This document shows, piece by piece, positions 28,594 through 33,468 of a stretch of DNA of 64,000 nt. How positions within the stretch are numbered: the stretch's first letter is position 1; every line of letters begins with the position of its first letter. Origin of the DNA: Aquiluna sp. KACHI24 (GTDB lineage: Bacteria > Actinomycetota > Actinomycetes > Actinomycetales > Microbacteriaceae). The stretch is taken from NCBI RefSeq assembly GCF_025997915.1, contig NZ_AP026677.1, positions 62,001 through 126,000 of the forward strand, given 5' to 3'. A program made the position numbers and the translations under genes. Under the pieces are notes generated by a model. The model was not told the DNA's origin. It did not search any database and was given only the letters and a program-made list of their open reading frames with translations.

Positions 28594-29331
28594 TTACTTA
28601 GCCTCCAGCTTGATTTTGCTAATGTCCAGTCGATCTGCTTTGAAGCTGTTTACGTGGTGGTCAGATGGATAACCCAGTGCGATCCCGCAAAGCAGTTTGT
28701 ATTGCTCGGGGACATCAAATTCTGCTCGCACCGGAGGTGCCCAGATTGCACTGGCTCCCTGAGCGCAGGTTCCAAGACCGTGAGCGTGAGCGGAAAGCAT
28801 CAGGTTCTGCATGAACAATCCAGCATCTGAAACCGAGTGCACACCGAGACCTGAGTGCGTGAAGATGAAGAGCGAAACCGGGGCGCCAAAAAACTCATAG
28901 TTTCTTGCCCACTGGGCACTTCTGGCCTCACGGTCATCGCGCTTGATGCCGATGTGACCATACAGTTCAGCGCCAACTCGTGCCGATCTTGGCTTTAGAT
29001 CCTTGGGGTAGTTGCGTTCAATCTTGTAATCAGACTGGGGTAGTCCATAGCGGGTAAAGAAGAGTTTGATCTTGCCCCAGATACCAGCTGCCAAAGCCTT
29101 ATCCGCAGCCTCCCAGCGAGCGAGAAACTCCTTGCTGATTCGATCCCTGACCTCACCTTTTGCAACTGCAACCAGGTACGGTCTGGTGTTTGACCAGGAA
29201 GGTGCCGTCATGGCATCTTCGAGCAAAATATCGATCAGCTCATCAGGAACTGGGGTGGGTAGAAAGTCTCTGGTGGTGCGCCTGGATGCCGCGAACTCGC
29301 GCCACTTTTTTGGCTCTAGATTGTGGGTCAC
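28594..29331 (-). CDS. Nitroreductase family protein
   Basis: 245 residues, FMN-dependent NAD(P)H oxidoreductase. N-terminal SRRTTRDFLPTPVPDELI, DAMTAPSWSNTRPY (FMN contacts), and a C-terminal GIALGYP block. GTG start at 29331. Upstream member of the operon with the P450; electron donor or modification of a common substrate is possible but unproven. Divergent from the P-type ATPase gene. Confidence 0.88.
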   Translation of the reverse strand: MTHNLEPKKWREFAASRRTTRDFLPTPVPDELIDILLEDAMTAPSWSNTRPYLVAVAKGEVRDRISKEFLARWEAADKALAAGIWGKIKLFFTRYGLPQSDYKIERNYPKDLKPRSARVGAELYGHIGIKRDDREARSAQWARNYEFFGAPVSLFIFTHSGLGVHSVSDAGLFMQNLMLSAHAHGLGTCAQGASAIWAPPVRAEFDVPEQYKLLCGIALGYPSDHHVNSFKADRLDISKIKLEAK

Positions 29332-29399: not shown

Positions 29400-31814
29400 A
29401 TGGCAACTCAACAAGCCCATGGTCTCAGCTCCCAGGCTGCAAAAATTCGCCTTTTGCAGGATGGACCAAACCAGCTGGTCAAAGAATCCAAAACTGGGCC
29501 TTGGCTCAGGGTGCTGAAGATTCTGAGCGAACCAATGTTGATTCTTTTGGGCATCGCCACCGCCGTGTCATTTCTTATTGCTGAGCCCGTCGAAGCTGCC
29601 GTCTTAGCTCTGATGATTGGTTTCATAGTCTTGACCACCATCTATCAAGAGGGCAAAGCGGAGAAGGCGCTTCGAGCCCTGAAGTCACTCTCTGCGCCTT
29701 TGGCCACCGTGCAGCGCGATGGGGTCTGGCAAAAGATTCCAGCGAGTGAGCTGGTGGTTGGCGATCTGATTCGCATTGCCGAGGGCGATCGCATACCTGC
29801 AGATGCCAGAGTCCTGGAATCAAGCAATCTCTCGATCGATGAGTCCTCGCTGACTGGAGAGTCGCTTGCGGTCACTCGCTCTCACGATGAGCTGGTCTCA
29901 GCGGGAACCTTGGTTGTCAGCGGTAGGGCCGAGGCCCTGATTGAAGCCACAGGCAGCAAGACAACCCTTGGACAAATCGGGGTATCGCTCAAAACCATCA
30001 AGCCTCAGCGCACCTCGGTGCAGCAGCAAATCGATAAGGCCGTGAAGCTGATAGCCATCATCGCCATTAGCTTCTCGTTACTTGTCTCCACAGTGGTTTT
30101 CTTCTCACGAGGGGATCTTGTCGACAGCATTCTGGCTGGGCTTTCTCTTGCAATGGCGATGATTCCCGAAGAGTTTCCAGTTGTTCTAACGCTGTTCTTC
30201 GCACTCGGTGCCTGGCGAATGTCACACGAAAAGGTGTTAGCAAGGCGATCTGCAGTTATTGAAACCCTTGGGTCTGCCACGGTGATCTGCACCGACAAGA
30301 CCGGCACCTTGACCATGAACTCAATGTCGATAGATCAACTGCTACCAACCGGCAGCGAGCAGGACCTGAACTTCTTTGCAGGTCTCGCCAGTCCGACCAA
30401 ATCCTTTGATCCTGTCGATGCAGCGTTTACAACTCTTAGCACCGAACACTCATTGAAGCTGGTGAAGGAGTATGCCCTTGGCAATGACCTACTAGCGATG
30501 ACGATGGTTTGGGAGGCAGAGGATCACTATGTGCTGGCCTGCAAGGGAGCTCCAGAGGCGGTTGCGAGACTCTCTGGTGCCGATGCCAAATCCGTAATTG
30601 ATCAGGTTGAGAAGTTAGCTGTTGGTGGTCGAAGGATCCTTGCTGTTGCAGGAGCAAGAATCTCGAAAGACCAACCACTTCCCGAAAACCAAACTGATCT
30701 AGATCTTGAGTTTCAAGGTTTGGTTGCGCTTCGTGATCAGGTAAGGCCAGGGGTTCCCGAGGCACTTGCTGAAGCCAAGGCCGCAGGCATCAGAGTGCTG
30801 ATGATGACTGGAGATTTCTCGGCAACCGCAATCGAGATAGCCCAGGAGATTGGTCTTGAGACCAATAACACCTTGACTGGGCAAGAGATTGATCAGCTGG
30901 GCGATGCCGAGCTGATCGAGAGGGTCAAGGATCTAACTATCTGCTCGCGAGTAACGCCAGCTCAGAAACTAAGGGTGATTCACGCCCTGAAATCAGCAGG
31001 TGAAGTTGTAGTCATGACCGGTGATGGCATCAATGACGCTCCGGCATTGAAGCTTGCAAACATCTCCATCGCAATGGGACTTCGCGGCACCGATGTCGCT
31101 CGTGAAGCATCCGATTTGATTTTGACCGATGACAACTTTGCATCGATAGTCGCTGGAATCAAAAGAGGCCGAACAATCTATGCCTCACTGAAGAAGGCCT
31201 TTGCCTACATCCTCGCGATCCATGTGCCGCTACTGGGCATGGCAGTGATTCCAATCCTGGTGCTGGACTGGCCCATTGTGTTGTTACCAGCGATGGTTGC
31301 CTTCATCGAGATGGTCGTTGACCCTGCCTGCACCATTGTGTTTCAGGCTGAACCGGCAGATCCAAAGATCATGCAGCAAAAACCAAGGCCGGTGAATGAG
31401 GGTCTGTTCTCCAAGAAAACTCTTCGCATTGCACTTTTCCAGGGCCTGTCGGTGTTGGCGATAGCGGCTGCAGTCTTCCTCGGCGGCGTCTCTATGGAGT
31501 ACGAAGATGATCAGGTGCGGACACTGACCTTCGTTTATTTGATTTTGGCGAATGTCTTCTTAATCTTGACCAATAGGTCTTGGACGATGCCAACTTTCAA
31601 GATCTTCTTCACGCGCAAGAACCCAACAGTGAAGTGGATAGTTGGATTGGCCCTGCTGGCGCTGGTTCTGATCGTGCAGCTACCGATTGCTCGCGAGGCA
31701 TTCTCGCTGGGTGCAATTGGTATTGGAGAGTGGCTAGTGCCATTTGTCCTGAGCTATTTGAGCATCGCTTGGTTTGATGTTTACAAATCGCTCAGGCCAA
31801 ATGCACTGCGTTAG
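29400..31814 (+). CDS. P2-type cation-transporting ATPase (Ca2+-ATPase-like)
   Basis: 804 residues. Short N-terminal cation_ATPase_N (GLSSQAAKIRLLQDGPNQL), actuator TGES (SSLTGESLAV), M4 motif MIPEEFPVVL, phosphorylation motif DKTGTLT, hinge GDGINDAPAL, and about ten membrane segments including C-terminal Cation_ATPase_C. PEEFP instead of PEGLP places it in the bacterial Ca2+/Mn2+-like P2 group rather than heavy-metal P1B. ATG 29400. Ion specificity cannot be told. Its stop overlaps the end of the small ORF on the other strand. Confidence 0.9.
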   Translation: MATQQAHGLSSQAAKIRLLQDGPNQLVKESKTGPWLRVLKILSEPMLILLGIATAVSFLIAEPVEAAVLALMIGFIVLTTIYQEGKAEKALRALKSLSAPLATVQRDGVWQKIPASELVVGDLIRIAEGDRIPADARVLESSNLSIDESSLTGESLAVTRSHDELVSAGTLVVSGRAEALIEATGSKTTLGQIGVSLKTIKPQRTSVQQQIDKAVKLIAIIAISFSLLVSTVVFFSRGDLVDSILAGLSLAMAMIPEEFPVVLTLFFALGAWRMSHEKVLARRSAVIETLGSATVICTDKTGTLTMNSMSIDQLLPTGSEQDLNFFAGLASPTKSFDPVDAAFTTLSTEHSLKLVKEYALGNDLLAMTMVWEAEDHYVLACKGAPEAVARLSGADAKSVIDQVEKLAVGGRRILAVAGARISKDQPLPENQTDLDLEFQGLVALRDQVRPGVPEALAEAKAAGIRVLMMTGDFSATAIEIAQEIGLETNNTLTGQEIDQLGDAELIERVKDLTICSRVTPAQKLRVIHALKSAGEVVVMTGDGINDAPALKLANISIAMGLRGTDVAREASDLILTDDNFASIVAGIKRGRTIYASLKKAFAYILAIHVPLLGMAVIPILVLDWPIVLLPAMVAFIEMVVDPACTIVFQAEPADPKIMQQKPRPVNEGLFSKKTLRIALFQGLSVLAIAAAVFLGGVSMEYEDDQVRTLTFVYLILANVFLILTNRSWTMPTFKIFFTRKNPTVKWIVGLALLALVLIVQLPIAREAFSLGAIGIGEWLVPFVLSYLSIAWFDVYKSLRPNALR

Positions 31815-31927
31815 CGGTAGTTAGCAAAGAGTGTTGGAAACAGGGCACCGAATAGCAGTGCCGCTGGGAGACTCAAACTTAGGACTAGTGCTTGCACTAC
31901 GTCCCAGTCAATTTTGAACTTCTTCAT
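31811..31927 (-). CDS. 38-residue single-span membrane protein downstream of the rhodopsin gene
   Basis: ATG at 31927, stop at 31811-31813. A very strong ribosome site (CTAGGAGGGGAA) precedes the ATG. The peptide starts basic (MKKFKIDW), then one hydrophobic helix (VVQALVLSLSLPAALLFGAL) and ends FANYR. It lies 66 bases after the rhodopsin stop on the same strand, but just past a terminator hairpin, so it is made either by read-through or from its own promoter. Too short for usual gene callers. Function unknown; a small rhodopsin- or membrane-associated subunit is possible. Confidence 0.65.
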   Translation of the reverse strand: MKKFKIDWDVVQALVLSLSLPAALLFGALFPTLFANYR

Positions 31928-31939
31928 TTCCCCTCCTAG

Positions 31940-31974
31940 AAAAGCACACGGCCGGGGATCGCTCCCCGGCCGTG
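31940..31974 (-). terminator. Rho-independent terminator of the rhodopsin gene
   Basis: CACGGCCGGGG (31947-31957) and CCCCGGCCGTG (31964-31974) form an 11-base perfect stem with a six-base loop; read on the minus strand it is followed by TGCTTTTC. It is about 20 bases past the rhodopsin stop and ends next to the ribosome site of the small ORF. Confidence 0.8.
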
Positions 31975-31993
31975 GCATTAGACATTGTGTTGC

Positions 31994-32779
31994 TTAGTGC
32001 TTGAACTCTGACTTAGCGAACTCAGCGTCATCCTCAGCGCTCTTGATACGAGCGATGGTGAAGATGATTAGGCCGAATAGACACTTAGCCAAGATGTCAG
32101 CAATGGTGTAACCAGTCTCGCGTAGAACGAAGCCGCTCTCGTCGAAGCCAGTGGCGTTCATGTTGAAGATGAACGAGATTGGGTAGACACCCCAGGTTGC
32201 TAGAAGAAGAAGACGTAGCTCCTTGATCTTGCGCTGGACTGCCTCGGACTGACCTGCAAGACCCTTACCTAGCTCTACGAATAGTACGTAAAGGATGTAT
32301 AGGAATGGGATGGTCGATAGCAGACCCCATAGTGGTGCGTCACCCTCGTATAGAAGGTTTAGCTGAGCGTCACCTGGGTAGCCAAGACCGATCATCAGGG
32401 CTGCAGCTGGAACTAGCTTGGTTAGCAAGCTGCGCTGTACTGCTGCGGCCAGAGCCAAAACGGCGATTGTCTCAACTAGTAGCAGTGGAACGGTTAGGAA
32501 CCAGTCCACGTAACGGTATCCAACGTTGTAGGCGACTACACCCATGCCATCGGTACCGAAGGCGTGCTTGAAGTCGTCGAACATTCTGAAGTAGTGGTAA
32601 GCAGCGATTGCGGTCACGGTACCGGAGACCATTACGGCCATGCGGTAACGAGGTGCAACGCGCTCACGCGCTACGAACAAGAAAATGGAGGTGAATAGCA
32701 TGCTCGCGATACCAAGAGAGAGCATGTTGTAAACAAGGGTGTACGACCCATTGCTCATAAATTCAGATAGTGAACCCAC
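31994..32779 (-). CDS. Actinorhodopsin-type light-driven proton pump
   Basis: 261 residues, seven membrane helices. Retinal Schiff-base Lys232 (ILAKCLFG); proton acceptor Asp92, Thr96 and donor Glu103 (VDWFLTVPLLLVE), the DTE pump signature; His62 next to the acceptor; Leu100 at the tuning position, so green-absorbing. Long final loop and tail (SAEDDAEFAKSEFKH). GTG start at 32779 with GAAAGGA upstream. Codon use is very biased, suggesting abundant product. No retinal-forming blh gene is in the window. Typical of freshwater planktonic actinobacteria; it pumps protons out to support ATP synthesis and uptake. Confidence 0.96.
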   Translation of the reverse strand: MGSLSEFMSNGSYTLVYNMLSLGIASMLFTSIFLFVARERVAPRYRMAVMVSGTVTAIAAYHYFRMFDDFKHAFGTDGMGVVAYNVGYRYVDWFLTVPLLLVETIAVLALAAAVQRSLLTKLVPAAALMIGLGYPGDAQLNLLYEGDAPLWGLLSTIPFLYILYVLFVELGKGLAGQSEAVQRKIKELRLLLLATWGVYPISFIFNMNATGFDESGFVLRETGYTIADILAKCLFGLIIFTIARIKSAEDDAEFAKSEFKH

Positions 32780-32941: not shown

Positions 32942-33394
32942 CTAGTACTGGAGGGAGAGCACACCGGAGCGAATTGCGCTCACATTCTGAACAAATCCAA
33001 ACTCCACAAAGGTCTTGCCCTTCGGGTTCAGGTTGAGTTTTGTTCTACCGGCCTCAAGCCACTTCCCCGAGGAATCTCTGAGCTCAAGCCAAATTTCACG
33101 CTCGCCAACTAGGCGTCCGTGATTCACGAACTCGATTCGGATCGTGTTTACAAATTGGCCAGCTGTGACGTCAATGGACTCCGGCTCGAGGCCACCTATT
33201 GCCTCAATGCGTCCGCATTCCAAAACCACGCACTCTGAGATTTCGGTGCGATCGATCTGAGTCACAACGTAGCGAGGGTTCTCCACCAGGGCGTTCTGAA
33301 GCAACAGGGCTAAAAGCAGCACAACCGATAGTGCGAAGGAGATCAGCATGGAGGTGCGCTGACCAACCTGGGTCAATAGCCATGGCCTTTTCAC
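32942..33394 (-). CDS. Small membrane-anchored extracytoplasmic protein, unknown function
   Basis: About 150 residues from GTG 33394, which has GAGG five bases before it; an ATG at 33433 in the same frame adds 13 residues. Basic N-terminus (KRPWLLTQVGQRT), one membrane helix (MLISFALSVVLLLALLLQ), then an outside domain rich in beta strands with a Cys pair (ECVVLEC) and GEREIWLELRDSSGKWL. The second part looks like an immunoglobulin-like or FxLYD-type fold. Not recognised. It is immediately upstream of the rhodopsin promoter region, same strand. Confidence 0.6.
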   Translation of the reverse strand: MKRPWLLTQVGQRTSMLISFALSVVLLLALLLQNALVENPRYVVTQIDRTEISECVVLECGRIEAIGGLEPESIDVTAGQFVNTIRIEFVNHGRLVGEREIWLELRDSSGKWLEAGRTKLNLNPKGKTFVEFGFVQNVSAIRSGVLSLQY

Positions 33395-33468
33395 TTGCAC
33401 CTCTTTCCGACCTATAAGGGTAGCGCTCCGCATGCCAATAGCTCGATTTCAGCAGGTAGCCTTAGAGG

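Follow-up and report, generated by a model that had tools for sequence, protein, structure and literature searches.

A small membrane protein gene conserved behind the actinorhodopsin gene of Aquiluna: a candidate accessory protein of a light-driven pump

Introduction

Ion-pumping rhodopsins are generally regarded as machines made of a single protein. KdpF, a small protein that crosses the membrane once, modulates a membrane transporter. The same is reported of AcrZ, which acts on the AcrB efflux pump (PMC7267776) and is the closest functional model for the locus described here. The likeness to these proteins is one of description and not of one-to-one sequence comparison, and the partner class here would be a rhodopsin.

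CydX of cytochrome bd oxidase is reported to be 37 aa long (PMC4325964) and to be required for its enzyme (PMC6005532). The small protein that we describe in Aquiluna is of equal size and likewise has one predicted helix, is encoded alongside a large membrane protein and belongs to a class of gene that often goes unannotated. It differs from CydX in three respects. None of 14 members matches a CydX family of Pfam or NCBIfam at E <= 1, and the gene before it is a rhodopsin gene and not cydAB. Moreover, CydX is required, whereas the rhodopsin of Candidatus Aquiluna IMCC13023 apparently pumps without the small protein, and the partnership here is one that we infer.

That rhodopsin, ActR-13023, belongs to the same clade as the one studied here, and its host genome carries the same small gene. 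It pumps protons when produced in Escherichia coli, and the cloning section of the report mentions the ActR gene only (PMC8113403). The terms "hypothetical," "downstream," "adjacent" and "small protein" do not occur in the main text of that paper, and a genomic study of Aquiluna and Rhodoluna (PMC12422013) uses neither "transmembrane" nor "small protein" nor "hypothetical protein." A literature search that covered titles and abstract openings, with subscription journals outside its scope, returned, among the matches listed, no paper on a small protein encoded in an operon with a microbial rhodopsin.

A last system bears on the hairpin that separates the two genes. In the Rhodobacter puf operon, segmental mRNA stability is reported to contribute to unequal product amounts (PMC6238624, citing Klug et al. 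1987). There, as here, a hairpin lies between genes of a light-driven system. However, the puf effect is experimental, whereas the Aquiluna locus is known from sequence only and its hairpin may be a plain terminator.

Results

The actinorhodopsin locus of KACHI24

The window is the whole stretch of 64,000 nucleotides that we analyzed from Aquiluna sp. KACHI24 (contig NZ_AP026677.1, positions 62,001 to 126,000). Its actinorhodopsin gene (positions 31994 to 32779, minus strand) starts with GTG at 32779 or, alternatively, with ATG at 32758; it matches Pfam Bac_rhodopsin with an E value of 3.5e-35 and is the sole PF01036 match in the genome, a single contig of 1,459,348 bases. Behind it on the same strand lies a gene of 38 codons (31811 to 31927), running from ATG at 31927 to TAA at 31813 to 31811 and encoding the 38-aa protein MKKFKIDWDVVQALVLSLSLPAALLFGALFPTLFANYR. 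A Shine-Dalgarno sequence, AGGAGGGG (31930 to 31937, minus strand), stands 2 nt upstream of the ATG, with an anti-SD pairing energy of -11.3 kcal/mol. Between the two genes, a terminator-like hairpin with a 12-bp stem and a loop of 4 (31947 to 31974, minus strand) begins 19 nt 3' of the rhodopsin stop codon. It is followed by a weak T-run (31946 to 31938), contained in the nine bases, TGCTTTTCT, that separate stem and Shine-Dalgarno sequence. The stretch from 31930 to 31993 is unusually stable (z = -3.85), and none of 200 shuffles folds equally well. The reading frame, ribosome site, hairpin and location on the rhodopsin strand are thus as the original prediction described them.

The small gene converges on a gene for a cation-transporting P-type ATPase (29400 to 31814, plus strand; Pfam), and the 3' ends of the two share 4 nt (31811 to 31814). 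Further along are genes, also assigned by Pfam, for a nitroreductase-family protein (28594 to 29331, minus strand) and, downstream of it, a cytochrome P450 (27409 to 28593, minus strand). Upstream of rhodopsin, positions 32942 to 33433 encode a 163-aa protein without a Pfam match; several relatives have look-alike open reading frames (ORFs) at this place, such as L061:2476-2937, which has no Pfam match either, and L055:2559-3026.

Could such an ORF arise by chance? Within the window, it is the only one that combines a Shine-Dalgarno sequence, a length of 28 to 60 aa and a hydrophobic stretch. Among 20 resampled 64-kb sequences, 3 contain at least one such ORF (mean, 0.25). Taken alone, the small ORF is mildly unusual; it is conservation that raises it above chance.

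The small gene accompanies rhodopsin throughout most of Aquiluna

Rhodopsin is present in 19 of 22 genomes of the genus Aquiluna, and the remaining three, which are incomplete, contain neither rhodopsin nor the small gene. One locus (G008) was left out because it lies at a contig edge, leaving 18 that can be read 3' of rhodopsin, and 16 of these have the small ORF directly behind it. With an additional metagenome-assembled contig (L058), the count is 17 of 19 loci, though these genomes are not independent: the rhodopsins of L058 and G018 are 98% identical. The two loci that lack the gene behind rhodopsin are those of G003 and G007. A profile of the small protein gives a single match per genome at E <= 0.01 and matches 17 genomes of the genus at this threshold, 16 at rhodopsin and the 17th (G003) partially and elsewhere. 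A scan of named genomes yielded 14 loci, 13 labeled Aquiluna or Microbacteriaceae and 1 labeled Auritidibacter; Candidatus Aquiluna IMCC13023 (L061) is among them.

The gene on the far side of the small gene varies. In seven loci (L053, L055 to L059 and L061) it is a same-strand nitroreductase-like gene 9 to 10 nt away, named by resemblance except in L061, where Pfam confirms it. In the window and G017 it is the convergent ATPase gene, and in G010, G009 and G001 it is a convergent DUF3817 gene (Pfam-confirmed in L050 and otherwise named by resemblance). Across these three kinds of downstream gene, rhodopsin is the sole constant neighbor of the small gene.

Beyond Aquiluna, the association was not found. 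Rhodopsin matches occur in 84 of 299 genomes of the family set, 7 of them Aquiluna; the locus set drawn from these leaves out a partial rhodopsin (L146) and weaker matches. Among the 62 loci read from other genera of Microbacteriaceae, none has the small gene behind rhodopsin. Four have some small hydrophobic ORF within 500 nt, none of them similar to the Aquiluna one. The sister genus g11, to which G303 belongs and which we take to be Rhodoluna, has the small gene behind rhodopsin at none of six loci. Profile searches of 396 genomes of the order and 299 of the family gave nothing firm beyond Aquiluna and a few sister-genus genes; weaker matches fall mostly inside long open frames; one example, at E = 0.01, is a frame of 48 aa in G220. 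A search of viral contigs found relatives of neither rhodopsin nor the small protein. The original prediction had proposed looking for the ORF behind rhodopsin genes of both genera, and it is found in Aquiluna and not in g11. Within Aquiluna both the frame and the ribosome site, whose loss in relatives would have counted against the prediction, are conserved.

Two rhodopsins from genomes placed in other genera, L139 (G303) and L144 (G163), are placed among Aquiluna sequences in the rhodopsin tree, which hints at gene transfer.

The small gene bears the marks of coding selection

We compared the 17 copies of the small gene. Synonymous differences (pS = 0.724) exceed nonsynonymous ones (pN = 0.212) overall and in each of 136 pairs, and the median dN/dS is about 0.13 in the 66 unsaturated pairs. 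Entropy is 1.32 at third codon positions versus 0.68 and 0.32 at the others. The other two forward frames are interrupted by stops in 17 and 12 of the 17 genomes. These statistics indicate that the gene is under purifying selection and lead us to reject a non-coding reading of the region, whose DNA also matches no Rfam family at gathering thresholds. In the same genomes, rhodopsin has a pS of 0.487 and a pN of 0.107; by this measure the small protein changes at roughly double the rate of rhodopsin and is under somewhat weaker constraint. We regard it as nearly certain that the gene is coding, conserved and, in Aquiluna, linked to rhodopsin.

The protein is 35 to 38 residues long. Eleven residues are invariant in an alignment of 14 rows: K5, I6, D7, W8, Q12, L16, P21, G27, A28, P31 and Y37. 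AlphaFold2, given 13 rows, models a single helix from residue 8 to 34 with a mean pLDDT of 86.3, in agreement with the one hydrophobic helix first predicted, and the product is probably a single-pass membrane protein. No helix face is significantly conserved (p = 0.09 to 0.23 at 100 degrees). Scans of 14 members against Pfam and NCBIfam gave no significant match: the best were NCBIfam YkgR (NF041474), which 4 of the 14 members hit at E values down to 0.021, and Pfam DUF7333, which 2 of the 14 hit at E values down to 0.018, both short of E <= 0.001. The window protein matches neither database at E <= 1, and the PDB gave no match at E <= 10.

The small gene lies behind the hairpin in most genomes

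A hairpin follows rhodopsin in all 19 Aquiluna loci and, outside Aquiluna, in 58 of the 62 loci read. In 13 of the 17 genomes with the small gene, the gene lies 3' of this hairpin, so that a stable hairpin stands between co-directional genes; anti-SD pairing in these ranges from -8.3 to -11.4 kcal/mol, some values being inflated by extra pairing. In the window, G016, G012 and G011, the gap between stem and Shine-Dalgarno sequence is 8 to 10 nt, which leaves no room for a promoter. Hence, transcription must pass the hairpin or start inside the rhodopsin gene.

In the other four genomes (G010, G001, G009 and G020), the small gene starts 15 to 20 nt past the rhodopsin stop and precedes the hairpin. 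Three of them have an alternative start 9 nt earlier with anti-SD pairing of -5.5 to -8.0 kcal/mol; the value for G001 is -8.6. Since these four form a single clade of the rhodopsin tree (support, 96/95), we conclude that placement before the hairpin reflects one event and not a trend.

Is the terminator specially leaky? By a rough T-run score, in which stems extend into some T-runs, the 13 genomes with the gene after the hairpin equal the other 6 Aquiluna loci (p = 0.90). The median of these 13 is 1.89 versus 0.86 in the 58 loci of other genera (p = 0.004), that is, higher and not lower. T-runs no weaker than those behind other rhodopsins give leakiness no support, and we rejected this idea. 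The partial read-through proposed originally therefore fits the gene order of 13 of 17 genomes and is unneeded in the other 4, and the T-runs lend it nothing.

In the window, the small ORF shares the reading frame of rhodopsin, with 22 open codons between (31811 to 31993), so that read-through of the stop codon would fuse the two proteins. A model of this fusion, made as a docking trial, is too poor for use at a pLDDT of 37; its alignment is shallow, and unpaired small-protein rows start after KIDW. The frame relation is not conserved, all three frames occurring (in 8, 5 and 4 of 17 genomes); hence, the shared frame is probably chance, and we set stop-codon read-through aside.

Probable relatives lie between ilvD and crtB in the sister genus

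A profile search of 67 g11 genomes gave weak matches, two of which are small ORFs that lie between ilvD and crtB and are oriented like ilvD. Such an ORF was present at 4 of 30 crtB places scanned, from a total of 62, the upstream flanks being short in some (L194, L195 and L217). A profile of these four found a fifth, in G696. All five (L174, L175, L203, L216 and L222) encode hydrophobic proteins of 35 to 38 aa on the ilvD strand. Comparison of the Aquiluna profile with the ilvD-crtB profile scored 93%. Single sequences scored 74% (G031, met without a motif filter), 82% (G712), 35% (G696), and 88% and 81% (G725 and G697, both picked by the profile, which favors them). As controls, 123 transmembrane windows taken from other proteins reached at most 21%, and 18 rhodopsin windows stayed under 3%. 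The ilvD-crtB ORFs are likely related to the Aquiluna small protein; any functional tie there could be either to crtB, a carotenoid gene, or to ilvD.

Further small hydrophobic ORFs away from rhodopsin were seen in G303 (L026:1359-1448) and G003 (L162), with a score of 96%, both having been picked by the profile search. G003 is one of the two Aquiluna genomes without the small gene behind rhodopsin.

Discussion

We propose, at a probability of roughly 0.4, that the small protein spans the membrane once, is produced from the rhodopsin operon and serves actinorhodopsin as an accessory protein. Its N terminus would face the cytoplasm, as three lysines in the window protein suggest, and its helix may pack against actinorhodopsin through the invariant Q, L, P and G-A residues, flanked by the conserved ends KIDW and Y. 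Binding is inferred here from linkage and conservation alone. The protein might tune the stability, oligomer assembly or chromophore loading of the pump without being needed for pumping: ActR-13023 is active in E. coli although the small gene was apparently not supplied, so the protein is probably not essential for that activity (PMC8113403, cloning section). It would be made from the rhodopsin transcript. In most genomes this would happen past an intercistronic hairpin that may stop or trim some transcripts; in one clade it would happen directly behind the rhodopsin stop codon.

Several observations count against an accessory role. ActR-13023 pumps apparently without the small protein, and conservation singles out no face of the helix. 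The gene is missing behind rhodopsin at 2 of 19 Aquiluna loci and was not seen at the 62 loci read from other genera, and its probable relatives in g11 lie away from rhodopsin. Might the protein then be a genuine small membrane protein that does other work, in the envelope, transport or stress, whose place beside rhodopsin is an inherited linkage in a compact genome? This is a substantial, if doubtful, possibility. The probable relatives that five genomes of the sister genus carry between ilvD and crtB would fit it, as would the possible relatives elsewhere in G303 and G003 and the two rhodopsins without the gene. However, mere linkage does not readily explain why the pair is kept together while the gene on its far side comes in three kinds, or why the small gene stays by rhodopsin whichever side of the terminator it occupies.

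The nitroreductase-like gene that begins 9 to 10 nt downstream in the seven measured loci raises another explanation: a short leader gene of a nitroreductase-P450 operon, whose translation would matter for the genes downstream while its product would not. Yet the small gene is retained where a convergent ATPase or DUF3817 gene comes next, conservation extends to the amino acid sequence beyond mere maintenance of a frame, and in G003 rhodopsin is followed by a nitroreductase-like gene with no small gene between. We consider a leader improbable. A hydrophobic peptide resembling type I toxins would share the size and single hydrophobic stretch, but the single match per genome, behind rhodopsin, and the conserved polar ends make this very improbable. 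A random ORF, or a 3' region of rhodopsin that encodes no protein, has, for all that 3 of 20 resampled sequences hold something comparable, a negligible probability in the face of coding selection across 17 genomes and no Rfam family at gathering thresholds.

An accessory protein of actinorhodopsin could be part of something larger. It might be the first case of a small accessory subunit dedicated to a proton-pumping microbial rhodopsin, with its dose set by an intercistronic hairpin, and might belong to a wider family whose sister-genus members lie next to carotenoid genes supplying retinal and antenna pigments; we think this full version unlikely.

As a gene kept by the pump in nearly all relatives examined, the small gene is a candidate helper. 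If its product does assist actinorhodopsin, some rhodopsin pumps would have a partner for regulation or assembly that is missing from heterologous studies. At least two of its hosts, KACHI24 and IMCC13023, are in culture, which makes the question testable.
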